From Salinibacter grassmerensis (GTDB lineage: Bacteria; Bacteroidota; Rhodothermia; Rhodothermales; Salinibacteraceae), in the NCBI RefSeq assembly GCF_947077765.1, contig NZ_CAMTTF010000001.1, forward strand, positions 62,001 to 126,000: a DNA stretch of 64,000 nucleotides. The letters run 5' to 3'. Both the position numbers and the translations under genes were made by a program. The notes under the pieces are model-generated. The model ran no database searches. It saw nothing but the letters and a program-made list of their open reading frames with translations, and was not told the DNA's origin. This document shows, in pieces, positions 7,701-57,142 of this stretch (position 1 is the first letter of the stretch; every line of letters starts with the position of its first letter).

Positions 7701-8294
7701 GTCCTGCTCCAGCAGCCGGTCGGCCAGTGCCTCTAGCGCGATTTCTTCGCCCGTCTCCACAGTTAGCGTTTCCCGCTGCACGGCCTGGGGCGGGGGCACG
7801 AGCTCGCCGACCGCCGGGACGCTCGTCACGAGGATGCCCTCAAAGCCCTCCGCCAGCCGCTGCAGGGCGTCGGCCCGCTCGATCAGCGGCGTCGAGTCCG
7901 CAATCTGGTCGGGGTCGTACGGCGTCTTCTGGGTAGCGGGAACGCGGAGAAGCGCCTCGTCCGGATTCCCGACGAGCTGCTCCAGGTCGCTCTGTAGGTA
8001 CGCCGCCGCGTCCTCGTCGGGCGTCAGCACGCAGAGGGGCGTGCCGGGCTCCCGGTGGAGGTGAGACAGCAGGAAGGCCGGAAGGGAGCCCGCCGCCCCG
8101 GTCACGTGGAGGGCGGGCGTGCGGTCCCCACGCTGGGCCTCGGCGGTCCAGGCGCGGAGGCGCGTGACGGCCGCGGTTTCTTCGATGCGGTTGGCGATGG
8201 CGGTGAGGGACACGGGCGGTCGTACAGGTTTCTGAACGTCGGTGCGAACGAGGCGGGGACGCTCCTCAACACGGAAAGCCCGACGCCGCGGCAT
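4785..8294 (-). CDS. mfd: Transcription-repair coupling factor Mfd
   Basis: DNA translocase that removes RNA polymerase stalled at lesions and recruits UvrA. At 1169 residues it is of normal length. In order: a UvrB-like N-terminal module including FARRGGILDVFPY; the RNA-polymerase-interacting domain starting GDFVVHVDHGIGRFDG; the RecG-like helicase core with Walker A VCGDVGFGKTEVA, DEEQRFG box and TATPIPRT; motif VI region QLRGRVGRSQRKAFCHLL; and the C-terminal TRCF domain. It is transcribed toward the hydrolase gene (convergent, 72-base gap) and away from a spacer that carries the perfect parS site. ATG at 8294 is used because no clearly better start lies near the UvrB-like domain. Confidence 0.97.
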   Translation of the reverse strand: MPRRRAFRVEERPRLVRTDVQKPVRPPVSLTAIANRIEETAAVTRLRAWTAEAQRGDRTPALHVTGAAGSLPAFLLSHLHREPGTPLCVLTPDEDAAAYLQSDLEQLVGNPDEALLRVPATQKTPYDPDQIADSTPLIERADALQRLAEGFEGILVTSVPAVGELVPPPQAVQRETLTVETGEEIALEALADRLLEQDFSPVEFVEEPGEFARRGGILDVFPYAGTYPIRIDFFGDEVDGLREFDPQTQRSVSRLTTARLVPNLEREEAARGSIALFKYLPGDAVLATLDEAQVREGAQAQYEEAVAAYEDRRAELAEDDEADEAPDDLTPPDDRFLTGDQMSAALTRHPRLQFGTFTQSATNGTPTDTLDLEADPQPSFSSDMDLVRKRLQENGDRDLDTFILCDSHGQSSRLRDLLESEIDHGWARLVVESLHEGFEWPGASLAVFTDHQIFNRYHRPSTQQRDGHADGMNIRDIKNLTRGDFVVHVDHGIGRFDGMKKITVRDNQQEAVRLNFADNDVLYVNVHALHKLNKYTGKEGHQPTLTKLGSEQWERKKQRTKDQVKDVARDLIKLYAKRKASDGYAFSSDTTWQREMEASFEFEATPDQAEATKAVKSDMEEPVPMDRLVCGDVGFGKTEVAVRAAFKAVQDGKQVAMLVPTTILAQQHHDTFSERMERFPVNVEVLSRFRSRSDQAEVLEKLEKGQVDILVGTHRITSDDISFDDLGLLIVDEEQRFGVKTKEKLRTMREDIDTLTLTATPIPRTLQFSLLGARDLSLIETPPPNRQPINTEIHTFDEDVIRDAIVYETSRGGQVFFIHNRVKTIHEVAEMVRAMVPNVRVGVGHGQMSANELEDVMLDFVNEKLDVLVSTSIIENGLDISNANTMIINHAGDHFGLSELHQLRGRVGRSQRKAFCHLLVPSVHGLTDDARERLKAVEQFSDLGSGFDIAMRDLDIRGAGSLLGAEQSGFVEDVGYETYHKILDQAVKELREEEFDDVFDGEAVPPGPETSVDVEEDAYIPESYLRDNTERLNLYRRISDAPDETTLVDLLDEMEDRFGEAPEPVQDLLTGARLRLLGEQLRMPKVVYKNERLFLYLPSEDADPYFYDEVFHPLLEKLTLLDREYVMKDDVEGGLMRAIVQDVDTLDEALQVTESLLLEETTTVATVEA

Positions 8295-8820
8295 TGGCGG
8301 CAGTCGGGGATGAGAGGGGTCTAGAAGCGGGTGGCAAGCGCTTTCACTTCGCCAAGGTCAACGGGGCATTCGAGCCGGGAGGTTCCCCCGTTGCTGCGGG
8401 GCGGAGCAGCAGGCATCGAGGAGTCGCAGATGTTTCACGACCAACGGGGGAAAGCCACAAGGGCGACGAGGACGGACGGCCGTGTTTCACGTGAAACACG
8501 GGGAGCACGTCCGGAGGTGTCGGCTGGCTGCACGATACCGGTGCGGACCCACCAGGTGCGAACGCGGAATCAAGACGGTCAGGGGCGGCGCCCGCACGCC
8601 GATTCTGGGACCCGACGACATGGGAGATATGGCGGCCGTCGGAGAGCAACGAGGGGCCGCGACGTTGCCCCCGACCCGAGGTAGGGCTCCCCGAAAACGG
8701 GAAAGAGCCTGTGGTTTAGGGACGCTGTCTCGCGGTGCTCGACGTGACCATCCCAAAGAAGCGGAGAGACATGTGGTGGCTTCGGCCCGCTTCTCCGGCA
8801 AAAGCGAATCTAGAAAGGCG
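8295..8820. other. Spacer between mfd and murQ carrying the perfect parS
   Basis: About 525 bases without a convincing gene; frames on both strands are Arg/Gly-rich shadows. It contains the only perfect parS palindrome (8483-8498) and a lone half site (TGTTTCACGA at 8431-8440). It should also hold the mfd promoter, since mfd starts at 8294 and reads away from it. Confidence 0.6.
8483..8498. other. parS site 6, perfect palindrome
   Basis: TGTTTCACGTGAAACA, identical to the consensus and fully palindromic over 16 bases. It is the strongest candidate in this window for a primary ParB-CTP loading site and lies in a gene-free spacer. Confidence 0.93.
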
Positions 8821-9817: not shown

Positions 9818-12616
9818 CTAGGAGGCTGTGAGGCCCGTTCGGGAGCGAGCGTAAACGATGGACCAGGCGAGAAGGGCTATGAGCAGGGCGAGGGCCACAG
9901 GCTTCCACGACCAGAGAAACGAGCTGCTGCCAGGGCCAAGCTGCAGGGAGCGAGGGGAGCCGTAGAGTACCGTGGGCGCCCAGAAGAACGGGCTCACGTT
10001 TCCGGTGTGGGTCTCCAGGTACGTGAGCTTGGCCCGTCGGAGCGCCCGATCTTTGGGCTGCCCCGCCCGAAGATTCTGGTAGAAGTGCTCCATGAGCGCA
10101 ACACTGGACTGGTCGGCCGTGGGCCACAGGTTGGAGACCGTCGACTGGGCCCCCATAACCCGAAAGGCGTACTGGAGGCCCGCCATGCCCTCGCCTCCCC
10201 GCAGCGTACCGCGGGCGGTACTGCACCCACTGAGGACGGCCAAGGGAAGAGCGCGATCGCGGGTCTGCAACTCGTGGAGAAACAAGAGCCCGTCCGAACT
10301 GGAGTCGGGGTGGAGGAGAAAGGCGTTTTGGAGCGAGGAGGAGGGGTTGACGAGGGCGTGCGAGGCCAGATGAAGCACGCTGGCCTGTCGGCTGGCGGTG
10401 GCGAAGGCTGTCTCTGTCGCGCGCTCGTCGAGAAACGTGTCGGCGTCGTCGAACAGACGGTCGAGGGTGTTGATCTCGGACTGCACGCCCGGCAGGGGCG
10501 GCAGAGAAAGGGACGAGGTCGCGGTCGTGCCGGCGCGGGAGGGGGGCAGGGACGACGAAGGGGGACGGAGGCCATCAAAAGAAGACACCCCGAAGGCCGC
10601 CAGGTCGGACGAGAATGATGCGGTACCCCCTCGCGTTTCCGAGGTGTCGGCCGCTAGGGAGGTCGACAAATCGAGCGCCGTCGGGCGTTCGTGAAGCACG
10701 AAGCGGGCCCGATCGTGGTCGTAGCGCCCCCCGGGGGCAGCCGTGGTCAACATCGAAAATGGCACGTGAAACATCGGCCCGTCGGGGATGACGGTCAGCG
10801 GCTGGCCGTCGGGAAGGTGCTCCGCCACGGGGGCGTAGAGGCGGTCGTGCAGCGCCCGAAGCGGACGGAGGTCGAAGTGCATCGCGCCGATTCCCTGGGA
10901 CGCCTGCTGGTCCGCGAACAGGGGGGAGATGGAGGAGACGTGGTGCCGCACCGAGTCCTGTGTGAGGCCCGGGAGGGCGACCGTCCGGAGCGTGTCGGCC
11001 GTCAGCACGAACGCCGCAGAGCGGGGAGGCCGGTCGTACACCGGCCAGGGGGCGTCGAGGAAGTAGGAGACCAGGGCCCGGTCCTGCTGGCCCAACGAGG
11101 CAGCGACCTGGTCGATTGACGGCCGATCGGCCGTGGTGAGAGCGGGGCCCAGAATCTTCTGGCGGGCCGTCATGAGGGTCGCTTCCCGAGTTCGAAGGTC
11201 TGTTTCTTTAGGGGGGGAAAGCGTGTCTTTTGCCAATTGAGTACGCACATCTGAGAGAGCGCGCCCGATGCTATCGAGCCGGGCGCGTGTCGATGTCGGC
11301 AGTTCGTTGGCCAGGCGGGCCTGGGTACGCAGGTCCTGGAGGTAGCGTGCACGGGTCCGATCGAGGGCAGCGAGGGCTGCTCGGGGGCGCTCTTGAGCCA
11401 GGAGGGCCCGAACGAGCCCCCGGTGCGTGTCGCGCCATTGAGTGAACGCCGTCGAGGACCACTGCGTGGCGGTAAGCGACTCACGGTACTGTTCGATTAC
11501 GGAGACCCCCTCCCGGTAGTATTTTTCGGCCATCGGCCAGTCGCTCTGCAGCTCGTGGAGACGTCCCAGTGCGCGCAGTGCACGACGCTGGTAGTCGAGG
11601 TCGCCGAGGTTCTCGGCGAGGGAAAGCGCCCGACGGAGTGTGGTCTCTGCTTGGGACCACCTTTCAGTTTGCATGTGAAGGACCCCCCGCTTGAGCAGAA
11701 CAAGCGCCTGCTGCTGGACATCGCCGTCCGTGCGAGTATGCTGCAATGCTTCGTCGTTCAGGCGGTAAGCCTCGTCAAACTTCCCCAAATACCCGAGACT
11801 TTCGGACAACGTTATTGAGGCGTGGGCGAATTGCTCTGTGCCAGGGCCGGCGGCCGCTCGGCTGCGGCGGGCAAGCATTTGGGCTCGTTCTATCGACGCC
11901 CGGTCGAACTTTGTGTTGAGTGTTTTTTCGAGAAGAAGGTCCGCTTGGCTGTGTAGGAGTTCGGCGCGTTCTTCGGAATCGGAAAGTGTGCGCTTCTGAT
12001 TCAGGCGTCGAGCCCGGCGAAAGTAGTAGCGGGCGGACTGGTAGTCCTGGGTGTGTTGGTAAAGAACCCCAACACTTCTCAGCAAGTCCATCCGTAGGCC
12101 CGTATCATCGTCCGGAGTGTTCTGAAGGGCTTTTAGGTACTGGTCAAGAGCGGATGAGAGGTTGCCGAGAAGGTGACGCAGGTAGCCCCGCTTCTGATAA
12201 ATCTTGGAGCGTTCCTCTGCTCGAAATGCCTCCAGTTCGTCACGGGGAGGTGAGGTTTTATTGAGGTGGGCAAGGGCGTCGTCGAGAACCTCGACAACCC
12301 GGGAAAACTGAGCGAGCGCGGCGCGGAGGTATCCTTCCCATTTGAAGGTGTAAAGGGTTGCCCGAAAGGTTGAGCGCGCGTCTTCGGGAAGACGCTGGAA
12401 GCACTGGCGCGCATCCTGAAGTTGAGAGATGTAGGTCTGAAGCGTGTCGGCTGAAATATCCTCGCGCCCCGCCCACACGTGCTGGGCGTCCGAGAATGAA
12501 CTGACGGGGAGCTCCGACTTTTTCGTGACGGGCAGAAGGTCTATGCAGTCGTCCCGGCTGGCAGTATCGGCCGGGGGAGAAAGTGTGATAAGAAGACCCA
12601 GTAGCAACGTCGTCAC
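9818..12616 (-). CDS. Exported TPR-CHAT domain protein with C-terminal membrane anchor
   Basis: 932 residues. An N-terminal hydrophobic signal (residues 1-19) is followed by a long all-helical region with tetratricopeptide repeats (roughly 80-400, for example around LLRSVGVLYQHTQDYQSARYY). The C-terminal CHAT domain is of the caspase-like clan. The predicted catalytic dyad is present: His753 in LHLASHALVN and Cys798 in LSGCSTARG. A hydrophobic helix at about 900-925 ends the protein with a basic tail. If the signal peptide is real, both the TPRs and the protease-like domain face the periplasm and are tethered to the inner membrane. The substrate is unknown; TPR-CHAT proteins elsewhere range from secreted cyanobacterial proteins to CRISPR-associated proteases. 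There is no neighbouring partner gene. The family call is secure, the function is not. Confidence 0.8.
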   Translation of the reverse strand: MTTLLLGLLITLSPPADTASRDDCIDLLPVTKKSELPVSSFSDAQHVWAGREDISADTLQTYISQLQDARQCFQRLPEDARSTFRATLYTFKWEGYLRAALAQFSRVVEVLDDALAHLNKTSPPRDELEAFRAEERSKIYQKRGYLRHLLGNLSSALDQYLKALQNTPDDDTGLRMDLLRSVGVLYQHTQDYQSARYYFRRARRLNQKRTLSDSEERAELLHSQADLLLEKTLNTKFDRASIERAQMLARRSRAAAGPGTEQFAHASITLSESLGYLGKFDEAYRLNDEALQHTRTDGDVQQQALVLLKRGVLHMQTERWSQAETTLRRALSLAENLGDLDYQRRALRALGRLHELQSDWPMAEKYYREGVSVIEQYRESLTATQWSSTAFTQWRDTHRGLVRALLAQERPRAALAALDRTRARYLQDLRTQARLANELPTSTRARLDSIGRALSDVRTQLAKDTLSPPKETDLRTREATLMTARQKILGPALTTADRPSIDQVAASLGQQDRALVSYFLDAPWPVYDRPPRSAAFVLTADTLRTVALPGLTQDSVRHHVSSISPLFADQQASQGIGAMHFDLRPLRALHDRLYAPVAEHLPDGQPLTVIPDGPMFHVPFSMLTTAAPGGRYDHDRARFVLHERPTALDLSTSLAADTSETRGGTASFSSDLAAFGVSSFDGLRPPSSSLPPSRAGTTATSSLSLPPLPGVQSEINTLDRLFDDADTFLDERATETAFATASRQASVLHLASHALVNPSSSLQNAFLLHPDSSSDGLLFLHELQTRDRALPLAVLSGCSTARGTLRGGEGMAGLQYAFRVMGAQSTVSNLWPTADQSSVALMEHFYQNLRAGQPKDRALRRAKLTYLETHTGNVSPFFWAPTVLYGSPRSLQLGPGSSSFLWSWKPVALALLIALLAWSIVYARSRTGLTAS

Positions 12617-13439
12617 GACCGACAGGGGAAACTTGGATTTTTAGACTTTTTGCTTTACGCTTTAGCCAAAGGAAGTAAACCCTCGACAGTCGCCTTCAGA
12701 CATTCGAACGTAGTTCGCTATGCTCTACCGCTCAGGTCGACATCTAGGCACGTTTCCAATGCAGCATGGCACGTCCACGTCTGGGGGAAGTACTCACCCA
12801 GAGGAGGGGGATGAGGAGGAAGAAGAAATTGAAACCAGTGGGGACGGAGATGAATAGCTCATTTCTCGCGTCTCATATGTGGGAGGCACCATGGACGGGA
12901 AGCGTCTCTTGGTCACTGGTTCCTCTCTGCGTTTTCCGTGGAGGCCGGTGTCTGTAAGCCGTCTGAGTTCTGGTGGAGCGGCGACGATCCCCTAATTAGA
13001 GGCACAGGAGGGAGGCAGTAAGGGACAGCGAAATTTTCAAATGGGTTTTCGGGTTCAACAGCCGGCTGGCCGTTCCGGGGGCGTCGTCTTGCCTTAGTGG
13101 AGGATCAGGGATGCGCGGAAAAGGGGAGAGGCCCTCGCGAATCTCGGTTCTTTGCAGGCCTCGTCTACCGCTTGATGCTCGCCGTGTCGCTCGTCTCTGG
13201 TGGCCGAACGGTCGCCGTAGACGACTCCCGTTCGTCGGGCTCACGTACCGAAGTCATGTCTTCCTTTCCAAAGTTTTCCTAACGTACAGGTTCGTGCCGG
13301 AAGTGTCGAACGCGCCGTGAAATTCAATCCGGGAGAGGGGGTCTGGTTATCTCGACCTCAGCGTTTCAGGTTGAGGGAAGGGCTGACCTGGACCGCCCAA
13401 AAACTTGTTCGAAAAACATATCGTTCGGCCGAGCACGGA
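12617..13439. other. Long spacer upstream of the TPR-CHAT gene
   Basis: About 820 bases with no supported gene; short frames of 60-80 codons on both strands show no family features. The first 50 bases next to the TPR-CHAT start are AT-rich (around 12640-12670) and could hold its promoter. No tRNA, repeat or terminator was recognised. Confidence 0.5.
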
Positions 13440-14024
13440 TCAGGACTGGTGCAGGGAGCGACCGTAGAGTGAGGCCGTGCACCGACACGCGCCCGAACAG
13501 ACCGGACAGGTAGGGCGCGTGCCGGTCCGAGTGTAGTACCGCTCGACGGTGGCCAGGCACGTGAACCCGTACTTTGTGAACAGCACCCGGCTGTCGACGG
13601 GGCCGGGCCGGTGCCAGGCGATGCCGAAGGCACGAGGGACGGCCCGCTCGGCGAGCACCTCGAGTCGGCGTTCATAAAAGGCCGACCCAATCCCCTGTCC
13701 TTCCCAGTCGGCCTGTACGCACGAAAGGTGGAAAATGCCGTTTCGGCCGGCGAGCGGTGGGGCCACGTCGAGTGTCTCCAGTCCAAGATACCGGCGCGTG
13801 TATCCACGACTGGCGACATCCAGAAGCGAAAAGCCCACGACCTCGGGGGCTGAGGCAGCGACCGCGACGAGCCCGACTGCCGAATGGGTTGTGGAGAGCG
13901 CAACCTCGATCCACTCCTGCTGGGTGGAGGGCTCACCCCCGAACCGCTGGGTCCAGAGGCGCTGTGCGGCGTCGGTGTCGGCGCTCCGAAGGGGACGAAC
14001 GAAGAACGTCTCTTCGGTGGGCAT
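13440..14024 (-). CDS. GNAT-family N-acetyltransferase with a C-terminal cysteine cluster
   Basis: 194 residues. The fold follows GCN5-type acetyltransferases. It shows a strand-helix start (FFVRPLRSADTDAAQRLW) and a core strand GLVAVAASAPEVVGFSLL. The acetyl-CoA loop region HLSCVQADWEGQGIGSAFYE corresponds to motif A (Q/R-x-x-G-x-G/A). The start at 14024 is chosen because an earlier start would run through the recF start region on the other strand and adds no recognisable sequence. The last 25 residues hold C173-x2-C176-x3-C180-x-C182, unusual for a GNAT and suggestive of a metal site. The acceptor substrate cannot be predicted. It diverges from recF with about 130 bases between starts. Confidence 0.75.
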   Translation of the reverse strand: MPTEETFFVRPLRSADTDAAQRLWTQRFGGEPSTQQEWIEVALSTTHSAVGLVAVAASAPEVVGFSLLDVASRGYTRRYLGLETLDVAPPLAGRNGIFHLSCVQADWEGQGIGSAFYERRLEVLAERAVPRAFGIAWHRPGPVDSRVLFTKYGFTCLATVERYYTRTGTRPTCPVCSGACRCTASLYGRSLHQS

Positions 14025-14151
14025 GTGGGCGTGAACACATGTGTGGACGATGGATGAACGAAGGCCCCCACCCGGTCGTAATGGATGAGTCCTCGGTCCC
14101 GACGACTGTCGGGACGCGCACCCCGACCCCCAGGTGGAAACCGCCTCGCTC

Positions 14152-15390
14152 ATGATCCTCCACACCCTTCGTCTCCGGTCGTTCCGGGCCCACGCGGAGA
14201 GCGAGTTCAATCTCGCCCCGTCGATCAATCTTCTCTACGGGCCCAACGGGGCGGGCAAGACGAACGTACTGGAGGCGGTCCACTACCTGTGCCTCACCAA
14301 GAGCTTTACGGCCTCGCGGGACCGGTACGCCGTCCGGAAGGACGCGCCGTATTTCGAGATCGAGGGGCGCATCGGGCAGGTCCGCGAGGAGCCGATGACC
14401 GTGCGGCTGGCGTACGTGCCGGGCGAGGGCAAGAGCATCTTCGTGAATGGTGCGGAGCTCGACCGCCTGGCGGACATCGTCGGCACGCTGCCCGTGGTCG
14501 TCTTCTCGCCGGAGGACTACGACCTGACGGCCGGCGGGCCCAGCGAGCGGCGCCGCTTCGTGAACAACATCCTCAGTCAGGCGCGGACCGTCTACATGGA
14601 GACCCTCATGAAATACCGCCGTGCGCGGCGCCAGCGCAACGAGGTGCTCCGCAGCTACAAGAAGCGCTCCGCCCCACCGCCCGACGAGCTCCTGGCCCCC
14701 TGGACGGAAAAGCTCGTCGTACTCGGCAGCCGCATTGTGCACCGGCGCCAGCAGTTCCTGCAGACGTTCGCGGACGACCTTGAGGAGGCGTACCGCCGCA
14801 TTGACGCGGTGGCCGAGCGGCCCACGATCGAGTACGACACGATTGCGGACCTGGCCCCCGACGCGACGCCCGACGCCATCGAAGACGCGTTCCGGGCGGC
14901 CCTCGACCGCAAACGGGGACAGGAGCGAGACCGTGGCACCACCCTCGTGGGGCCGCAGCGGGACGAGCTCGTCTTCCGCCTCGATGATCTGAAGGTGCGC
15001 CGGTACGGCTCGCAGGGCCAGCACCGCACCTTCGCCATGGCCCTCAAGCTGGCGCAGTACTTCTACCTGCAACAGCGAAACGACACTGAGCCGCTGCTCC
15101 TCCTCGATGACGCCTTCGGCAAGCTCGACGCGAAGCGCACCGGGGTCTTTCTCGATCTTCTTCGGTCGGACGCCGTGGGGCAGAGCCTCGTCACCGCCAC
15201 GCGCCGGGGGCCCTTCGAACCGGCCCTGAGCGCGGAGCCCGCGTCGCACCGCGCCCTGCAGGTGCACCCGGGCGACGGGACGGCGGAGGTGGAGCCGGAT
15301 CCGGAATACGCCCGTGGAGAGGCGACGGCCGCCAACGGCGTGGCGTCGGCACCCGCAGGAGCTGACGCAGCGTCAACGTCCCGCGACTGA
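14152..15390 (+). CDS. recF: DNA replication and repair protein RecF
   Basis: SMC-like ATPase that with RecO and RecR loads RecA onto gapped DNA. 412 residues. Walker A is YGPNGAGKTNVLEAV near the N-terminus. The GGPSERRRFVNN segment and the ABC signature SQGQHRTFAMALK follow, with Walker B LLLLDDAFGKLDA. The ATG at 14152 (MILHTLRLRSFR) matches the family start; a GTG at 14134 would add six residues. The last 60 residues after the ATPase core are Ala/Pro/Glu-rich and look like a lineage-specific tail. recF normally sits beside dnaA-dnaN; neither is in the window, but its closeness to mnmG-rsmG and the parS cluster fits an origin-proximal location. Confidence 0.96.
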   Translation: MILHTLRLRSFRAHAESEFNLAPSINLLYGPNGAGKTNVLEAVHYLCLTKSFTASRDRYAVRKDAPYFEIEGRIGQVREEPMTVRLAYVPGEGKSIFVNGAELDRLADIVGTLPVVVFSPEDYDLTAGGPSERRRFVNNILSQARTVYMETLMKYRRARRQRNEVLRSYKKRSAPPPDELLAPWTEKLVVLGSRIVHRRQQFLQTFADDLEEAYRRIDAVAERPTIEYDTIADLAPDATPDAIEDAFRAALDRKRGQERDRGTTLVGPQRDELVFRLDDLKVRRYGSQGQHRTFAMALKLAQYFYLQQRNDTEPLLLLDDAFGKLDAKRTGVFLDLLRSDAVGQSLVTATRRGPFEPALSAEPASHRALQVHPGDGTAEVEPDPEYARGEATAANGVASAPAGADAASTSRD

Positions 15391-15446
15391 CTCGAGAACG
15401 ACGCACAGATCTTTGCCGACACGTGTCTTTGCCAACAAGTGACAGC

Positions 15447-48901: not shown

Positions 48902-50857
48902 CTACCCGTGGTCCACCTCAGTCCCCGTAACCTCGAAGCGCGCCCCGCCGTCGCGTCCCTCCGTCAGTTCAAGAGACCATCCGTGAGCGTCCACGATAGT
49001 CTTCACGATGCTCAGGCCGAGTCCCGTGCCTTCCTCGTCCGACGAGTATCCGGCCTTGAGCACATCCTCCTCCTGATCAGAGGGGATCCCCGGGCCGTCG
49101 TCTTCCACGAAAAAGCCGTCGTCGAGCGCACCCACTCGGAGGGTCACGTCGTCGCCTCCGTGCTCGATGGCGTTGCGGAACAGGTTTTCCAGAAGCCGCT
49201 GGAGGCGGCTCTCGTCGGCGTACACGCAGGGAGGGTCCTCCACCACGAGCTGGGCCTCCGGCACGTCAACACGCTCCCAGCACGACGCAATTAGGGAAGC
49301 GAGGTCACAGTCGCCCAGGTCCGCGTCGCTGAGCTTTTGTCCTCCCCAGGTAATCGCCAGCAGGTCTTCGATGATTTCGTCCATCCGGCCTAGAGCACGG
49401 CCAATGGCCGGCAGGTGGCTCAGGTCCTCCGTGTCTGCAGCGAGCTCGAGGCGGCCCTTTGCCACGTTGAGCGGGTTTCGGAGGTCGTGGGCCACGAGGC
49501 CCGCGAAGTTGTCGAGCCGTTCGTTTTGGCGCTCGAGCTGCTCCGTAGCGCGGCGCTGCTCAAGTTCGTAGCTGGCCCAGCGGGTCATCAATTCCATAAA
49601 GGTCCGCTCCCGCTCCGTGAACGCGGTGTCGCGGGCGTCGGAGGCCGCGAAGCACAGCGTGCCGTAGAGGCCCCCATCGACCAGAATTTGTGAGCCGATA
49701 TAAGCGCCCAGCTCGAATTCCTCATAGGCCGGGTCGTCCGTCCAGCCCGTGGGGGCGACGTCCTGGATGGCCAGCAGGGCATCCCTCTCCGCCGTCTCTC
49801 GGCAGTACGATTTGGAGAGGGGACACGACTCGCCTGGCTGGAGTAGCGGGTGGTCGCCTGTCGCCTCGAGAATGTGCTGTGTGCCGTCCGAGATGCGGGT
49901 CAAAAACCCGTACGGGAGGTCCAAGTAATCGCACCCGAGCTCGATGAGGCAGCCCACCTTATCCTCAAAGGAGGCGTTCTGATCGGCGGTAATGCGGTAC
50001 ATCGACCGCAGGGCCTCCTGCTCGGCGCGCAGCGTCTGCTCCCGTTCCTTCTGTTCGGTAATGTCGGTGTAGATCGCGTATCCTTCCGGTGTCTCGCTAT
50101 CGGAAAAGAGCACCGAATTGAGCCGGAAGTGCCGGCGCCCCTCATCCGTCTCGCGGATTACTTCGGCCTGTACGCTGCCCTCTTCTATGGCCTGCTGGGT
50201 CAGCGTCTCGGCCTGAGGAAGTCGTTCGTCGGGGGCAAGAAGCGCGTCGAGGTCGCGGCCCACAACTTCGCTCCGTGACAGGCCAAAGGTCTCTTCAAAC
50301 GCCACGTTGGCCCCACGCGCGATCGCGGCCCCGCTCCGCACCTCGTAGTGCACCACCGGGCTCGGCAGGCCCGTGTACAGCGCCGCCAACCGGTCGCGTT
50401 CGAGCCGGAGCGTTTCGTCCTGGGCCGCGGACAGAGGCGCCATCCGCGCGATGCCCACGACACAATTCGGCGGCCCCACGTCGCCGGACAGCGGCCGCGC
50501 GGTGAACGTACAGGGGCGGGCCGGTCCTTCGCGAGGAATCAGCGCAACCTCGGCCGTTGCGGTATCGCGTTCCGCCCGCACGGCGTCGAGGGTCTGCTCG
50601 ACAGACGCGGCGTCGCCCTTTCCGAACAGATCAGATAGGCTCTTTCCGCGGAGGGCAGCGGCCGAGTGCCCGATGGCTCGCTGAAGAGGGTCGTTGCCCC
50701 ACGCAAGCGTGTTCTGAGGGCCAAACACAAAGACGGGATCGGGCATGGCCGCGAGTACGGCGTCCGCGAAGTCGGATTGTTCGGGCAGAGGCGAGGTGGC
50801 CTCCGCATCTGTATGGTCTTCGGGCAGGGAGCTTCCCTGCGTCTCGCTTGTGGGCAT
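48902..50857 (-). CDS. Soluble PAS-PAS-GAF sensor histidine kinase of haloarchaeal type
   Basis: 651 residues with no TM helix. An acidic leader is followed by PAS-1 (FADAVLAAMPDPVFVFGP), PAS-2 (LAALYTGLPSPVVHYEVR, ending YAIYTDITEQKERE), a GAF domain (GESCPLSKSYCRETAE, DGGLYGTLCFAA), HisKA with NFAGLVAHDLRNPLNVAKG, and HATPase (LENLFRNAIEHGG, VEDDGPGIPSD, GTGLGLSIVKTIVDAHGW). The catalytic half reads closer to haloarchaeal kinases than to bacterial ones: the HDLRNPL H-box, FRNAIEHGG, the AGYSSDEEGTG loop and a GARFEVTGTE end. Phosphorylation is likely functional. No receiver lies nearby. It converges on the kinase at 46.6 kb and shares no obvious operon. Confidence 0.88.
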   Translation of the reverse strand: MPTSETQGSSLPEDHTDAEATSPLPEQSDFADAVLAAMPDPVFVFGPQNTLAWGNDPLQRAIGHSAAALRGKSLSDLFGKGDAASVEQTLDAVRAERDTATAEVALIPREGPARPCTFTARPLSGDVGPPNCVVGIARMAPLSAAQDETLRLERDRLAALYTGLPSPVVHYEVRSGAAIARGANVAFEETFGLSRSEVVGRDLDALLAPDERLPQAETLTQQAIEEGSVQAEVIRETDEGRRHFRLNSVLFSDSETPEGYAIYTDITEQKEREQTLRAEQEALRSMYRITADQNASFEDKVGCLIELGCDYLDLPYGFLTRISDGTQHILEATGDHPLLQPGESCPLSKSYCRETAERDALLAIQDVAPTGWTDDPAYEEFELGAYIGSQILVDGGLYGTLCFAASDARDTAFTERERTFMELMTRWASYELEQRRATEQLERQNERLDNFAGLVAHDLRNPLNVAKGRLELAADTEDLSHLPAIGRALGRMDEIIEDLLAITWGGQKLSDADLGDCDLASLIASCWERVDVPEAQLVVEDPPCVYADESRLQRLLENLFRNAIEHGGDDVTLRVGALDDGFFVEDDGPGIPSDQEEDVLKAGYSSDEEGTGLGLSIVKTIVDAHGWSLELTEGRDGGARFEVTGTEVDHG

Positions 50858-51082: not shown

Positions 51083-53386
51083 CTACGCCGCGGCGCCGTT
51101 CTCGTGCTCTTGGATGCGGGTGAGCGACGCCTCCAGCGCGTCGCGGTGGATCACCTCGCCAGTGTTGGGCTTCACCTGTCCAAATTCCAGCACGCCGGTC
51201 GGGCACGTCTCCACGCACGCCGAGCACCGGACGCACTCCGGGTCGTCCATGTGCTCCCCCTTCTGCGCGTAACTCATCACGTCGATGCCCTGGTGACAGA
51301 CGCTCGTGCACTGGTTGCACGAGATGCACTTCTTCTTGTCGGCCAGGATGCGGAAGCGGCTAAACCGGTGGTAGATGTGCATGATCGCCGCCAAGGGACA
51401 GAAAAAGCGGCACCAGAAGCGTCCGCTGAGCCAGAAGTACACCCCGAAGCCCACCATGCCGGCCAGAAGAATGTCCACCACCCAGCTGTAGCCCAGGCCC
51501 AGGCTCCCGCCGTGTAGGCCGGCCCGGTAGGCCTCCGCGGCCCAGCTGCCTGGCCAGATCCACCCGCCGATCCGCAGAAACAGCAGCGCAAACGCCACGC
51601 CCATGATCACCTGTCCCGCCAGGTTGAGCTTGTTCCAGCCGGGGCCGTGCGGCATCTTCTCGCGGTGCTGGTCGCCGAGGGTCTCAGCCAGGGCGCCGCA
51701 GGTGCAAATCCAGCCGCAGTAGGCGCCCTTGCCCCAGAAGTAGATCATCCCGGGGATGAGCACGAAGGTCTGCACGAAGCAGATGCCAAGCCACCACCAG
51801 AGCGGGTCGGCGGTGAACACGTTCCAGATGAAGAGGGGCCACGCCAGGATAAACCCGTAGGCCCGCCAGTACTGGCGCCCGTGGACCGCGTACTCGCTGG
51901 TGGGGAAGAGGGCGTCGAGGACGCCGGTGGGCAACAGGCCATTCGCCCCGAGGTAGGGGAGGACGAACTCCGGAAGGATGAACAGCGGCAGGACCTGAAT
52001 GCCCATCAAGGTGAGCGTCTGTACCTTGATGTAGGGCGTTTTGCGCCGCCGGATGCGTTTGACCCCGAAGACGACCACGAGCGCCGAATAGGCGAACGTG
52101 TAGTAGAAGCCCGGCTTCTGCATCGAGGTTAGCAGAATGTCGAGCGCGCCCGTTCCGCTCGTGTCAGGGGCCCACCCGAACGGGAAGAACCCGGTGGCCT
52201 GCGCCCACTGGCCCACCCAGCCGCCGTCCTTCCAGCTGTAGACGGCCACCATGAAGAAAAAGAAGGCCGCGAACGCCGTGATGCGGTCCCAGCGCAGGTC
52301 TTTCAGCCAGGCAAGGCCGGACATGGCGTCCTGGAGGGAGTCGGGCACCTCTCCCCAGTCGTTGCGGAGTTCGATGCCGGAGCGGCGGAAGAAGTCGAGC
52401 GGCGCTTCCCGCCCGATCGTGGCGAAGACGTGATCCGCGTCGACGGTCTCCGTGTCGTTGGTTTCATCGGAGAGCACGACCTCGCCCTCGCGGATCTCTT
52501 CCACGTCGGTCGGCATCTTGAGGGTGAGGCTGCCCTCGCCTTCGTGGTACGTGGCCAGCTCGTAGAGGCGCTCCACGTTCTCCTCCTTCGGCCGCACGAA
52601 CTCGTCGCGCCGGTACGAGAGGGTGACGTCGGCCCCTTCCTCTGTCAGCGCAGCGGCGGCCTCCGCCGCCGAATCGCCCCCGCCGATCACCAGGGCCCGG
52701 TCGCCGCGGCACCGCGTGGGGTCGTGGAGGCGGTGCTGCACGTGGTCCTTGTCCTCGCCGGGCACGCCGAGGCGTCGGAAGTTGCCGCTCCGCCCGATGG
52801 CCACGATCACGCGCTGGCCCCGAATGCGATCTCCGTCGGTCGTGATCACCTCGTGGCCCTGGGCCGTCTGATCGACCCGGTGGGCCGTTGCGTGGCGCAC
52901 CGGAAGGTCTTGGGTCTGCGTCTCCAGCTCCTCCACGAGCGCCTCCTTGACCTCCGCGGAAATCTCGAGGTCGCTCTCCGGCGTCATCGATTCCGGGTAG
53001 GTGTAAATCGGCTTCTCCGCCTGAAAGTCCTTGATCGTCGCAAACCGGCGCTGCGACTCCAGCACGCAGAAGGAGAGACCGCTCTTCTGGGCTTCCCGGG
53101 CGGCGGCCATGCCGCTGGCCCCCGCGCCGATGATCACCACGTCGTACGGCCCGTCCTCGCCGGTCGGCTCCACAGGGTCGATGCCCCGCGTGAGAAGGTC
53201 CCGAACGGCCCGGGCTCCGCCCTCGACCGAGAACTTGAGGAGGGGCACCCCGGCCAGGTCCCCCACCACGTAGACCCCGTCGACGTTGGTGCGGAAGTGG
53301 TCGTCGACCTTGGGCAGCTTTTCGGGCGTCCCGGCGGGCCACTGCAGGTGGAGCCAGTTGGCGTAGCGGGCGAGCGCGTCGAGCAT
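51083..53386 (-). CDS. FAD-NAD(P) oxidoreductase fused to a NosR/NapH-like polyferredoxin membrane module
   Basis: 767 residues. The N-terminus (about 1-70) resembles the last segment of a thioredoxin-reductase fold (TNVDGVYVVGDLAGVPLLKF). A complete flavoprotein domain follows: FAD motif VVIIGAGASGMAAAREA, NAD(P) motif ALVIGGGDSAAEAAAAL and FATIGREAPLDFF (about 80-345). Then come at least six TM helices with CGWICTCGALAETLG and CRFFCPLAA motifs of NosR/NapH/CcoG-type proteins. The end has two 4Fe-4S clusters: CISCNQCTSVCHQG and CVRCSACVETCPTG. The cofactors would allow electrons to pass from NAD(P)H through flavin to membrane iron-sulfur centres. The acceptor is unknown. ATG 53386 is preferred; one lies 24 bases upstream. 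No nos, nap or cco genes are adjacent. Confidence 0.83.
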   Translation of the reverse strand: MLDALARYANWLHLQWPAGTPEKLPKVDDHFRTNVDGVYVVGDLAGVPLLKFSVEGGARAVRDLLTRGIDPVEPTGEDGPYDVVIIGAGASGMAAAREAQKSGLSFCVLESQRRFATIKDFQAEKPIYTYPESMTPESDLEISAEVKEALVEELETQTQDLPVRHATAHRVDQTAQGHEVITTDGDRIRGQRVIVAIGRSGNFRRLGVPGEDKDHVQHRLHDPTRCRGDRALVIGGGDSAAEAAAALTEEGADVTLSYRRDEFVRPKEENVERLYELATYHEGEGSLTLKMPTDVEEIREGEVVLSDETNDTETVDADHVFATIGREAPLDFFRRSGIELRNDWGEVPDSLQDAMSGLAWLKDLRWDRITAFAAFFFFMVAVYSWKDGGWVGQWAQATGFFPFGWAPDTSGTGALDILLTSMQKPGFYYTFAYSALVVVFGVKRIRRRKTPYIKVQTLTLMGIQVLPLFILPEFVLPYLGANGLLPTGVLDALFPTSEYAVHGRQYWRAYGFILAWPLFIWNVFTADPLWWWLGICFVQTFVLIPGMIYFWGKGAYCGWICTCGALAETLGDQHREKMPHGPGWNKLNLAGQVIMGVAFALLFLRIGGWIWPGSWAAEAYRAGLHGGSLGLGYSWVVDILLAGMVGFGVYFWLSGRFWCRFFCPLAAIMHIYHRFSRFRILADKKKCISCNQCTSVCHQGIDVMSYAQKGEHMDDPECVRCSACVETCPTGVLEFGQVKPNTGEVIHRDALEASLTRIQEHENGAAA

Positions 53387-53410
53387 GGGACGTACAGAAC
53401 GGTGGGGCAA

Positions 53411-53916: not shown

Positions 53917-55449
53917 CTACGGGACAAGTCGCCGTCGGCTCACGTGAGCGCCGACCGCGAGCATGCTCCCCCATAGGAGGTGCGCCAGCAGGCTGTTCGG
54001 GCTGAGGTTTGGGATCGGGGTCGAAATTCCGACGAGATTAAGCCAAATCGGCATGACGAACCCGCTCGCTCCGAGCCATAACACTGCGCCCCACGCGGTC
54101 CCTACACCGACCATTCCCACCCAGTCTGTCCGCCACCAGCGAGGAAGGAGAGTGAGGAGGCCGGCGTAGATGAGGGCAAAGACGAGACTGTGAAACTCGT
54201 GGGTCAGGACGCCGACGAGAAGGTTCTGCGTGCCGTAGAGCGCACCAATGACCGGCACGACCCCGGTGGTGAAGTGCATGTACGCCCCCATGGCCCCACC
54301 CGCGACCAGCCCCGACAGGGCGGTGGCCCCGAGCTGGGCCGGTGTAACGCCTACAAGGGAGGAATCTGCCGGGACGCTGGACTCGTCTTCGGGGGATTCG
54401 GGGACGCGTTCGAGGGCGACCGACACGGTGGTGCCCTCGTCGGTCACCTCTGTGTGAAGGGATCCCTGGAATGCGTATACGAACAGCCGCACGAGATACA
54501 GCCCGAGCCCCGCCGTAGGATCCCCGTCTTTGGAAATGGTCGTGCCGTGCTCCAGGGCTTCCCGGTTCTTGTCTGGAAGGCCGGGCCCCTCGTCGGACAC
54601 GGAGATCGTCACGGTGTCGGGGGTCGTGTCGAGAGAAACGGCCACGCGGGGAGCGTCCAGGTTGGCGTGCTCGGCCCCGTTCTTGAGCAACTGACCCACC
54701 ACGTCTGCCAGCCGGTGGTTCGCGTACGCCGATACGTCGGATGGGAGCGACTGGGCCACAAACGTCGCGTCGGGGTGTCTCTCTCGTGCCCGCTGGAGTG
54801 CCGTCTCAACAGCCTCGGGGACGTTCACCGGCTGCGGCTCGGCCTCGGCGCCCGGCTCGGTGAGGTCGTGCACGCTTCCCATGACGGCCTCGATGGATTC
54901 GGCCTTCTCCAGAATGGCGTCCACCGACTCCAGTCCCGAGTCTGCATCGTCCCGCAGAAGCGGGGCGCTCCCTTTGATCACCGTAACGGCATTCATCACC
55001 CTGTCGTGCAACAGGCGATTGAGAATGACGAGCCGATTCTGGCGGTTCAAGAGCTTGCGCTGGGCGGCTTGGTTCTGGGCAGCGTACAGGCCGGTGAGAG
55101 CCCCGCCCACACTGCCCCCGATCAACACGTTCGAGAAGATGCCGACCGTCCGGACATCTTCGGCGAAGGAGGACGCCCCTCCGTAGACGGTCGCCACGAT
55201 GAGCAGGCCAATCACGCCGGCCCCGAGCACTGTCCACCGCGCAATGGTGCGCACGTACCACGTCTCGAATGAGCCGATGGCGAGGGCCACGCCGCACACC
55301 GACAATGACAGGCCGAGGACGAGGGGGACGATGCCCCCGACCACAAACGCCGTCGGTGCCTCCGCGTGGGCGAACGTGATGGTGTAGCGGGTCAGGAAAA
55401 ATCCCAAAAGCGCGATGACTAGCCCACTAGGGGTGAATGTCCGGCGCAT
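53917..55449 (-). CDS. Membrane sensor histidine kinase of haloarchaeal type with a C-terminal membrane domain
   Basis: About 510 residues. Four N-terminal TM helices (about 10-130) are followed by a degenerate-looking HisKA (LVILNRLLHDRVMNAVTVIKG) and a HATPase domain (QLLKNGAEHANL, SVSDEGPGLPD, PTAGLGLYLVRLFVYAFQG). The sequence goes on for 150 residues after the ATPase with four more TM helices, including VVPVIGALYGTQNLLVGVLTH and VMPIWLNLVGISTPIPNLS. Helix-HK-helix proteins of this sort are typical of haloarchaea, and both the LHDRVMN H-box and the C-terminal segment fit that group. The start at 55449 (ATG) is preferred over an upstream TTG. No receiver is adjacent. Confidence 0.8.
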   Translation of the reverse strand: MRRTFTPSGLVIALLGFFLTRYTITFAHAEAPTAFVVGGIVPLVLGLSLSVCGVALAIGSFETWYVRTIARWTVLGAGVIGLLIVATVYGGASSFAEDVRTVGIFSNVLIGGSVGGALTGLYAAQNQAAQRKLLNRQNRLVILNRLLHDRVMNAVTVIKGSAPLLRDDADSGLESVDAILEKAESIEAVMGSVHDLTEPGAEAEPQPVNVPEAVETALQRARERHPDATFVAQSLPSDVSAYANHRLADVVGQLLKNGAEHANLDAPRVAVSLDTTPDTVTISVSDEGPGLPDKNREALEHGTTISKDGDPTAGLGLYLVRLFVYAFQGSLHTEVTDEGTTVSVALERVPESPEDESSVPADSSLVGVTPAQLGATALSGLVAGGAMGAYMHFTTGVVPVIGALYGTQNLLVGVLTHEFHSLVFALIYAGLLTLLPRWWRTDWVGMVGVGTAWGAVLWLGASGFVMPIWLNLVGISTPIPNLSPNSLLAHLLWGSMLAVGAHVSRRRLVP

Positions 55450-55990
55450 GCTCTCGTGTGTGGCAAAAGACAACAGAATCAGCGACGCGGAACGTACTTA
55501 GACGACGTGGGCGGGGGACGCAACCGCTTCGTGTTACGTCTGGCTGCGCCCCGATGCGTGCGAATCGGGAAGAAGAGCCGCACACCGGGGAGATCCGGGA
55601 TGGGGAGACCCGGAGCTGGCGGCCACGCGGTCCTGAGACCAGTGCATGGCTACGGCGGCCGTGACCTCACGCCAGTATTTTGAGTGCTCTCCGAAACGGA
55701 TGCGGGGCATTTCGCCTTCTCACCTGTCTTTGGTCATCGGCGGTTGAGGGGCGTTCCTTCAACACGGTCTCGAGGGCGACGGGAACCCCGACGAGGGACG
55801 TCCAGGGGAGAGGCACGCGGGCGGCTGAGCGACGAACACTCTTGGAGACGAACACTCTTGGAGTAGTGATCAGAGGAACGAGAACACTCGGCGTCCGCCC
55901 GGCGCGTAACGCTGTCCCGAAAAAGCGCCCCAAGCACAGCCGCGGATGGTCACTGATCTGCTGTTTTCCTCGATGCCCGATTCTCCTGCC
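55450..55990. other. Spacer between the haloarchaeal-type kinase and the DUF3179 gene
   Basis: About 540 bases between divergent genes, with no supported coding sequence. It holds a perfect 16-base tandem duplication at 55831-55862 and presumably promoters for both neighbours. Confidence 0.5.
55831..55862. repeat. Perfect 16-base tandem duplication
   Basis: GACGAACACTCTTGGA occurs twice in direct succession (55831-55846, 55847-55862), about 130 bases upstream of the DUF3179 gene. Confidence 0.9.
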
Positions 55991-57142
55991 ATGCAGCACC
56001 GACTGTTTTTCGTGCTGGGTCTAGCGGGCCTCTGGGCCTGTTCCGTCGTGCTCGGGGCGCAAGCGCAGTCGTCCCTGCCCGCAGGGGCGCCGGCTGCCCT
56101 TCAGCAGTTCGACACGGATTATTCGGCGCACAACATCGATCTCTCGACGCTGCGGTCGGGTGGGCCGCCGAAGGATGGTATTCCCTCGGTGGACGCCCCC
56201 GTATTCGTTTCGGTGGGGGCGGCCCAGGATTGGATCGCCCCGGAGGAGCCGGTGATTGCCTTCGAATACAACGGCGCGGCCCGGGCCTATCCGCTTCAGA
56301 TTCTCACCCACCACGAGATTGTCAACGATCGAGTGGGGGGCACGCCGGTGGCGGTCACCTTCTGCCCGCTCTGCTACAGCGCCCTCGTGTTCGTTCGTAC
56401 GCTCGATGGGACGCCCGTCGAGTTCGGCGTCTCCGGCATGCTCCGCAACTCAGACCTGGTCATGTACGACCGGAAGACCGAGACGCTGTGGCAGCAGCTC
56501 ACCGGTAAAGCGATCGTCGGGGACCGTGCCGGGGACACGCTGGAGCAGTTGCCCTCTCAGATCGTCTCCTTTCGCCAGTTTGCGGACAGCTATCCCGACG
56601 GCGCGGTTCTCTCCCGCGATACAGGGCATGACCGGCCCTACGGCCGCAATCCGTACGCGGGCTACGACGACATCGACAGCAGGCCTTTCGCCTACGATGG
56701 GCCGGTCGACGACCGTCTCCCACCGATGGAGAAGGTCGTGGCGGTCAGTGTGGGGACCACCCACAAGGCGTACCCGCACTCTACGACAGAGGAGGAGCGG
56801 GTCGTCCACGATACGGTCGGGGGCCGGCCTCTGGTGGTCCTCCACGCGCCCGGTGCGGTGTCGGCCCTCGACGCGCCCGAGATCGAGGACTCGAAGGAAA
56901 CCGGGTCCACGGGCGTGTTCGTCCCGCGGGTGGACGGGCGCTCCCTGCAGTTCTCCTACGTTGGGAAGGGGCGCTTCCAGGACGCGGAGACGAAAAGCAC
57001 CTGGACGGTGACGGGGGAGGCCATCGAAGGGCCGCTGGAGGGCACACAGCTCGATCGCGTGCGGCACGGCGACTACTTTGCGTTCGCCTGGCTCGCCTTC
57101 CGCCCCGACGCCACGGTGTTCGAGGCCGAGGTGGGTTCGTAG
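55991..57142 (+). CDS. Exported DUF3179 domain protein
   Basis: 383 residues with a signal peptide (MQHRLFFVLGLAGLW to AQAQ). The body matches DUF3179: FEYNGAARAYPLQILTHHEIVND, the CPLC site FCPLCYSALVF, RNSDLVMYDRKTETLW, and YSYV/GRF strands near the end. The conserved Cys pair in FCPLC and nearby His residues could bind a metal. The function of the family is unknown; these proteins are often found in marine and halophilic bacteria and archaea. Alternative upstream ATGs at 55946 and 55973 would lengthen the leader. It precedes ppc by 195 bases without an evident link. Confidence 0.82.
   Translation: MQHRLFFVLGLAGLWACSVVLGAQAQSSLPAGAPAALQQFDTDYSAHNIDLSTLRSGGPPKDGIPSVDAPVFVSVGAAQDWIAPEEPVIAFEYNGAARAYPLQILTHHEIVNDRVGGTPVAVTFCPLCYSALVFVRTLDGTPVEFGVSGMLRNSDLVMYDRKTETLWQQLTGKAIVGDRAGDTLEQLPSQIVSFRQFADSYPDGAVLSRDTGHDRPYGRNPYAGYDDIDSRPFAYDGPVDDRLPPMEKVVAVSVGTTHKAYPHSTTEEERVVHDTVGGRPLVVLHAPGAVSALDAPEIEDSKETGSTGVFVPRVDGRSLQFSYVGKGRFQDAETKSTWTVTGEAIEGPLEGTQLDRVRHGDYFAFAWLAFRPDATVFEAEVGS

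Follow-up and report, generated by a model that had tools for sequence, protein, structure and literature searches.

A soluble sensor histidine kinase of haloarchaeal type in Salinibacter grassmerensis, and a near-identical transmitter half in its paralogue

How does a bacterium come to carry a sensor histidine kinase whose catalytic half resembles those of haloarchaea, and with what might such a protein communicate in a bacterial cell? We consider this question for one gene, here called K1, in a stretch of 64,000 nucleotides of Salinibacter grassmerensis DNA (the window), which belongs to a genome of 3.78 Mb in 19 contigs. The reading that we favor, with a probability of roughly 0.8, is that K1 encodes a soluble sensor histidine kinase with a haloarchaeal GAF-transmitter part, which an ancestor of the genus took up and which was then duplicated and diversified. 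The gene and its domains are as follows.

48902..50857, minus strand: K1, the kinase reported here, PAS-PAS-GAF-HisKA-HATPase, 651 aa, ATG start
50444..50752, minus strand: first PAS domain of K1, residues 36-138 (PF08448)
50054..50326, minus strand: second PAS domain of K1, approximately residues 178-268 (PF00989 at 178-255, PF13426 at 183-268)
49568..49933, minus strand: GAF domain of K1, residues 309-430, with conserved C352 and C402 (PF01590)
49343..49510, minus strand: HisKA domain of K1, residues 450-505, with the predicted phospho-acceptor His457 within HDLRNPL (PF00512 and an invariant column)
48926..49216, minus strand: HATPase_c domain of K1, residues 548-644, with N, G1 and G2 motifs (PF02518 and invariant columns)

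An earlier reading of the sequence alone had proposed a PAS-PAS-GAF kinase at 48902-50857, and the open reading frame, its strand, its length and the Pfam domains all agree with this. The two transmitter domains score well above their cut-offs (PF00512 41.1 bits against 26.9, PF02518 69.1 bits against 26.4), and residues H457, N562, D586, G588, G590, G612 and G614 are invariant across 42 aligned relatives. Judged by these domains and residues, K1 is a HisKA/HATPase sensor histidine kinase with intact catalytic motifs. The AlphaFold2 model has a mean pLDDT of 89.2, a pTM of 0.59 and the expected order of domains. Among solved structures, the transmitter is closest to ordinary histidine kinases: ZraS (9jfj) shares the HisKA-HATPase fold (E 1.3e-15 by sequence), and 4u7o and 4kp4 have a like fold at TM by target of 0.70-0.71 and a low identity of 22-26%. 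Among the best 50 structural matches listed, no full-length match had a TM above 0.28 by query. The protein is acidic, as the earlier reading had also noted, with a pI of 4.34 and 121 D+E residues against 55 K+R.

All four segments that had been quoted as haloarchaeal in character (HDLRNPL, FRNAIEHGG, AGYSSDEEGTG and GARFEVTG) are present in the translation of K1, and the claim that they are more haloarchaeal than bacterial is borne out by motif counts. These counts describe best hits to an HMM and not a random sample. HDLRNPL occurs in 103 of 109 distinct haloarchaeal transmitters. Among 94 transmitters of bacteria or other archaea it occurs once, these 94 consisting of Rhodothermia from outside the genus (1/34), other kinases of the genome or genus (0/20), other Halobacteriota (0/30) and bacterial plasmid kinases (0/10). 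The corresponding values for GARFE are 85/109 in haloarchaea and 0/34, 0/20, 1/30 and 0/10 in the other four groups. Among the relatives of K1 in the genus, HDLRNPL is found in 22 and GARFE in 17 of 23 rows, in which one gene was entered twice (L013 and L121). Overall, RNAxEHGG, GYSxxxxGTG, AHGW, HDLRNPL and GARFE are frequent in the haloarchaeal rows and nearly missing from the 94 others, by which a chance resemblance of motifs is ruled out. The two GAF cysteines, C352 and C402, behave similarly in distinct rows of at least 120 bits, where both occur in 58 of 59 rows from haloarchaea and 19 of 19 from the genus; among Rhodothermia rows from outside the genus the fraction is 1/5. In rows below 120 bits, C402 is often lost, remaining in only 4 of 9 from haloarchaea and 5 of 7 from the genus. 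To assign the pair a thiol or metal function would be guesswork.

Among the 41 bacterial relatives searched, the class of K1-type kinases is limited to the genus, with matches to K1 at E<=1e-40 in 10 of its 13 genomes and in 0 of the 28 relatives outside it. A scan of 345 genomes of the phylum, in which 3 candidates were scored per genome, gave 10 genomes matching at 1e-25. Six of these belong to the genus; the four from outside it match at 26-31% identity within the PAS-GAF part. When 294 genomes from the phylum of a haloarchaeal genome were scanned with 4 candidates scored per genome, 68 matched at 1e-20. The best of these 294 was G554 (C3:596083-597261; same phylum as the Haloarchaeobius genome G366), with 53% over residues 258-648 of K1; the match spans the GAF-HK part only, and the PAS half of K1 lies outside the alignment. 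A full search of four halophilic archaeal genomes at 1e-20 gave 25, 30, 23 and 6 matching stretches, some of which are pieces of one gene. A scan with one genome per species, using patterns built from an alignment that already contained haloarchaea, gave at least 80 loci, of which at least 78 were archaeal and at least 2 were from bacterial MAGs (apparently the genus genomes G004 and G002). HMM scores follow the same division (haloarchaea 160-341 bits, genus relatives 234-358, all other groups 30-124).

Among the best 60 rows of a plasmid tblastn search with K1, 56 were haloarchaeal and four were from Leptolyngbya at 23.7%. No mobile-element or phage carrier was found: megablast matched the K1 gene to no plasmid, and in tblastn no phage record reached 80% coverage of the query. 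One close relative at 43% (L041) comes from a MAG titled Thermoplasmatales archaeon SW_10_69_26; this may be either a transfer to another archaeal phylum or a matter of binning or naming.

In order to place K1 among kinases, we built a tree of the transmitter, the HisKA-HATPase half to which the sequence-only reading had pointed as the check on its proposal, from 229 rows thinned to 92 by identity and a length of at least 185 aa. K1, 20 further rows of the genus and 46 haloarchaeal rows form one clade of 67 rows (support 100/99, branch 0.95). Outside it lie five other kinases of the same genome, eight of Rhodothermia, four plasmid kinases and eight of other Halobacteriota. A position of K1 deep among bacterial kinases, without archaeal neighbors, was looked for in this tree and not found, and an ordinary bacterial kinase is thereby ruled out. 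By its transmitter sequence, K1 thus belongs firmly with the haloarchaeal transmitters and apart from the bacterial ones. This affinity is not unique to K1, since several such kinases are present in the same genome. The rows of the genus form three clades, A including K1 (14 rows, 99/95), B (4 rows, 100/100) and C (3 rows, 98/87), and B and C adjoin different haloarchaeal rows with moderate support. The bootstrap of this tree had not settled, and resolution at the base of the 67-row clade is poor. Forcing the 21 genus rows into one clade cost 32.7 log units (AU p 0.186), and forcing the 46 haloarchaeal rows together without the genus cost 42.9 log units (AU p 0.11).

A second tree, of the GAF-HK part, places clade A (100/99) inside the haloarchaea via nodes of 93/96 and 89/84, with a rooting that depends on a single very long outgroup row. 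For this tree 21 of 74 rows were dropped after inspection of an earlier tree of the 74, five of them (L091, L093, L099, L164 and L138) for long branches or doubtful value as outgroup and the others mostly as near copies. In the 74-row tree, L121, labelled as another kinase of the genus, nearly duplicates L013. For the second tree, a topology with the haloarchaea as a single clade that excludes the genus gave an AU p of 0.157. As the AU tests leave both a haloarchaeal and a genus clade unrejected, a haloarchaeal donor and three separate acquisitions are not statistically forced.

These results bear differently on the possible origins of K1. An ordinary bacterial kinase might have acquired a haloarchaeal look by acidity and a common habitat, and K1 is indeed strongly acidic (pI 4.34). 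However, five further kinases encoded by this acidic genome group with bacteria, so that shared acidity alone does not explain the placement of K1; other kinases of this genome score 30-110 bits against 160-341 for haloarchaea, and the shared motifs sit in the catalytic core and the GAF domain. We regard such convergence as very hard to credit. The direction of transfer is a finer matter. The sequence-only reading had spoken of a transfer to an archaeon, of which the haloarchaeal affinity and the exchange between domains are supported and that direction is not, the distribution favoring haloarchaea as donor and the bacterium as recipient. If the class had been born in the Salinibacter line, passed to haloarchaea and expanded there, one could more readily understand why haloarchaea as a single clade without the genus is unrejected in both trees (AU p 0.11 and 0.157) and why the 67-row clade is so poorly resolved at its base. 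Against this, the class is found in one genus among the 41 bacterial relatives yet is numerous in halophilic archaeal genomes, and the best trees nest the genus among haloarchaea, which makes the reverse course improbable. We therefore prefer acquisition by the genus, with both the direction and the number of transfers being what we infer from the distribution and the best trees. According to this preferred reading, a Salinibacter ancestor would have acquired the K1 gene from a haloarchaeon in the same brine, and the gene would then have been duplicated and diversified within the genus.

The comparison of K1 with one of its paralogues is informative about its later history.

48932..49588, minus strand: putative gene-conversion tract, residues 424-642 of K1, near-identical to the paralogue G000:C2:700614-702563 (L002)

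The two genes agree at 78% overall. Identical codons amount to 193 of 219 in residues 424-642 compared to 202 of 431 outside (z 10.2, with 4.75 as the highest of 300 shuffles), and the control comparison of K1 to its G003 orthologue has no such contrast (151/219 and 280/431). At fourfold sites, K1 and its paralogue are identical in 105 of 120 cases inside the tract, and in 39/57, 39/59 and 43/55 in three parts of the sensor, the last of which overlaps the tract by 13 residues. In the nucleotide comparison of K1 relatives, the G004 row starts at its match and not at the start codon. The confinement of near-identity to the transmitter half suggests a recent gene conversion; on these codon counts, the transmitter half of the pair was probably converted while the sensors diverged. 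Alternatively, the gene may have been duplicated recently and one copy then given another sensor half, without any conversion of the transmitter. Either event would yield a near-identical transmitter with divergent sensors, and fourfold sites leave the donor direction of the pair undecided, but the sensor halves are homologous over their whole length (69-89% nucleotide identity) and the tract stops inside the gene at approximately residue 642. We thus consider replacement a possible but weaker account. Conversion would keep two sensors feeding one partner, and two paralogues that differ in their sensors but share a homogenised transmitter offer a natural experiment on the maintenance of partner choice after duplication.

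What that partner might be can be approached from the surroundings of the gene. No stand-alone response regulator was among the matches listed for nine neighboring genes (39653 to the end of the window), and K1 therefore looks like an orphan kinase. Most likely, judging from its domains, K1 would work as an orphan cytoplasmic histidine kinase. A cytoplasmic signal would reach one of the PAS domains or the GAF domain, a coiled linker would then alter the HisKA dimer, the HATPase domain would phosphorylate His457, and the phosphate would move from there to an unlinked response regulator; ligand and partner are thus what we infer for K1. HalX (PF08663), a response-regulator class common in haloarchaea, was found in none of the 41 genomes, including that of K1; this absence counts against the preferred reading and rules HalX out as the class of partner. 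HTH_10 (Bat-type) was barely above its cut-off in 5 of 13 genus genomes and found in 0 of 28 others. With HalX absent and HTH_10 weak, a bacterial regulator would be the likeliest partner.

Gene exchange between Salinibacter ruber and haloarchaea was reportedly described by Mongodin et al. in 2005. Rhodopsins, a hypersalinity island and transporters are given as exchanged or as candidates (PMC5624296, PMC12613981); the relevant passages of these two papers name no histidine kinase, and both texts have 0 occurrences of the word "kinase". Cytoplasmic kinases with several PAS and/or GAF domains, like K1, are numerous in archaea (Galperin et al. 2018, PMC5847659); that survey covers archaea, and its main text does not mention Salinibacter. 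A haloarchaeal protein with a similar GAF-HisKA-HATPase core is encoded by the plasmid gene EFA46_RS11365 of Halarchaeum sp. CBA1220 (WP_123077530.1; 39.7% over residues 20-648). PAS, GAF, HisKA and HATPase domains were found in both proteins; an N-terminal receiver domain is present only in the Halarchaeum protein, and K1 is in a bacterial genome. Our literature search, judged from its listings, gave no paper describing this kinase transfer, and in titles and the starts of abstracts nothing on point for gene conversion in histidine kinases. That Salinibacter and haloarchaea exchange genes is thus already known, and K1 is a new, dissected case with an unusual pair of paralogues. Since a transferred sensor kinase needs a partner to phosphorylate in its new host, the K1 family makes the wiring-in of a foreign kinase testable.

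K1 has neighbors of different descent.

51083..53410, minus strand: FAD/NAD oxidoreductase fused to a NapH-like 4Fe-4S membrane part; a bacterial context marker conserved in the family and outside the transfer
53917..55473, minus strand: K2, a second haloarchaeal-type kinase, 518 aa, with hydrophobic N- and C-terminal parts (HATPase_c and a weak HisKA-like match)
55946..57142, plus strand: DUF3179 gene, divergent neighbor of K2 (PF11376)

The oxidoreductase gene is 225 bases from K1 and has K2 on its other side. The protein has a match in Pseudoalteromonas (44.8% over 98%) and is found at 1e-60 in 12 of 13 genus genomes and 6 of 18 others, the thirteenth genus genome (G004) having a fragment at a contig end only. 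A bacterial gene that the family retains thus separates K1 from K2, and the locus is not a single archaeal island. K1 adjoins the oxidoreductase gene in G003 and G010 and lies approximately 7.5 kb away in G006 and G004. Neither K1 nor K2 was found at 1e-12 in 11 other oxidoreductase regions (7 of the genus, 4 of the family; two on short contigs). In G005 (L295), only 1.6 kb separates the oxidoreductase gene from the PEP carboxylase gene, and K2 and DUF3179 are absent. Other open reading frames stand at the K2 and K1 sites there, 7991-8659 (minus) and 12375-15398 (plus); on visual inspection they resemble a small sigma factor and a sigma-54-type regulator. The pattern around the oxidoreductase gene is compatible with two histories: K1, and K2 together with DUF3179, may have been inserted in one branch of the genus, or they may have been lost elsewhere.

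In a comparison of K2 to plasmids, 4 of 111 records covered 80% of it, all four haloarchaeal, and one pair of K2 and a haloarchaeal relative has 34% over 502 positions. Among relatives, K2 at 61% or more is limited to the genus; in G010 the matches to K2 are split over two separate open frames. DUF3179 is directly adjacent in one of four haloarchaeal K2 neighborhoods, another has two DUF3179 genes 7-9 kb away, and in the stretch shown for the remaining two there is none. The DUF3179 gene at 55946-57142 is closest to Deinococcus (46.7%), which leaves a joint transfer with K2 only as a possibility. A wider network transfer may be imagined, in which at least two haloarchaeal kinase classes (K1 and K2) entered, the K1 type perhaps three times and with several copies per genome, and were rewired to bacterial regulators, with conversion keeping transmitters alike for one partner; we hold this for speculative and rather doubtful.

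Two further observations were made. At the DUF3179 site, G003 and G006 have two tandem DUF3179-like matches (L191 and L193). A 104-aa open frame at G000:C1:917631-917921 on the minus strand (L198) matches the HATPase part of K1 only, at 53%, and is possibly a remnant of another K1-type copy.
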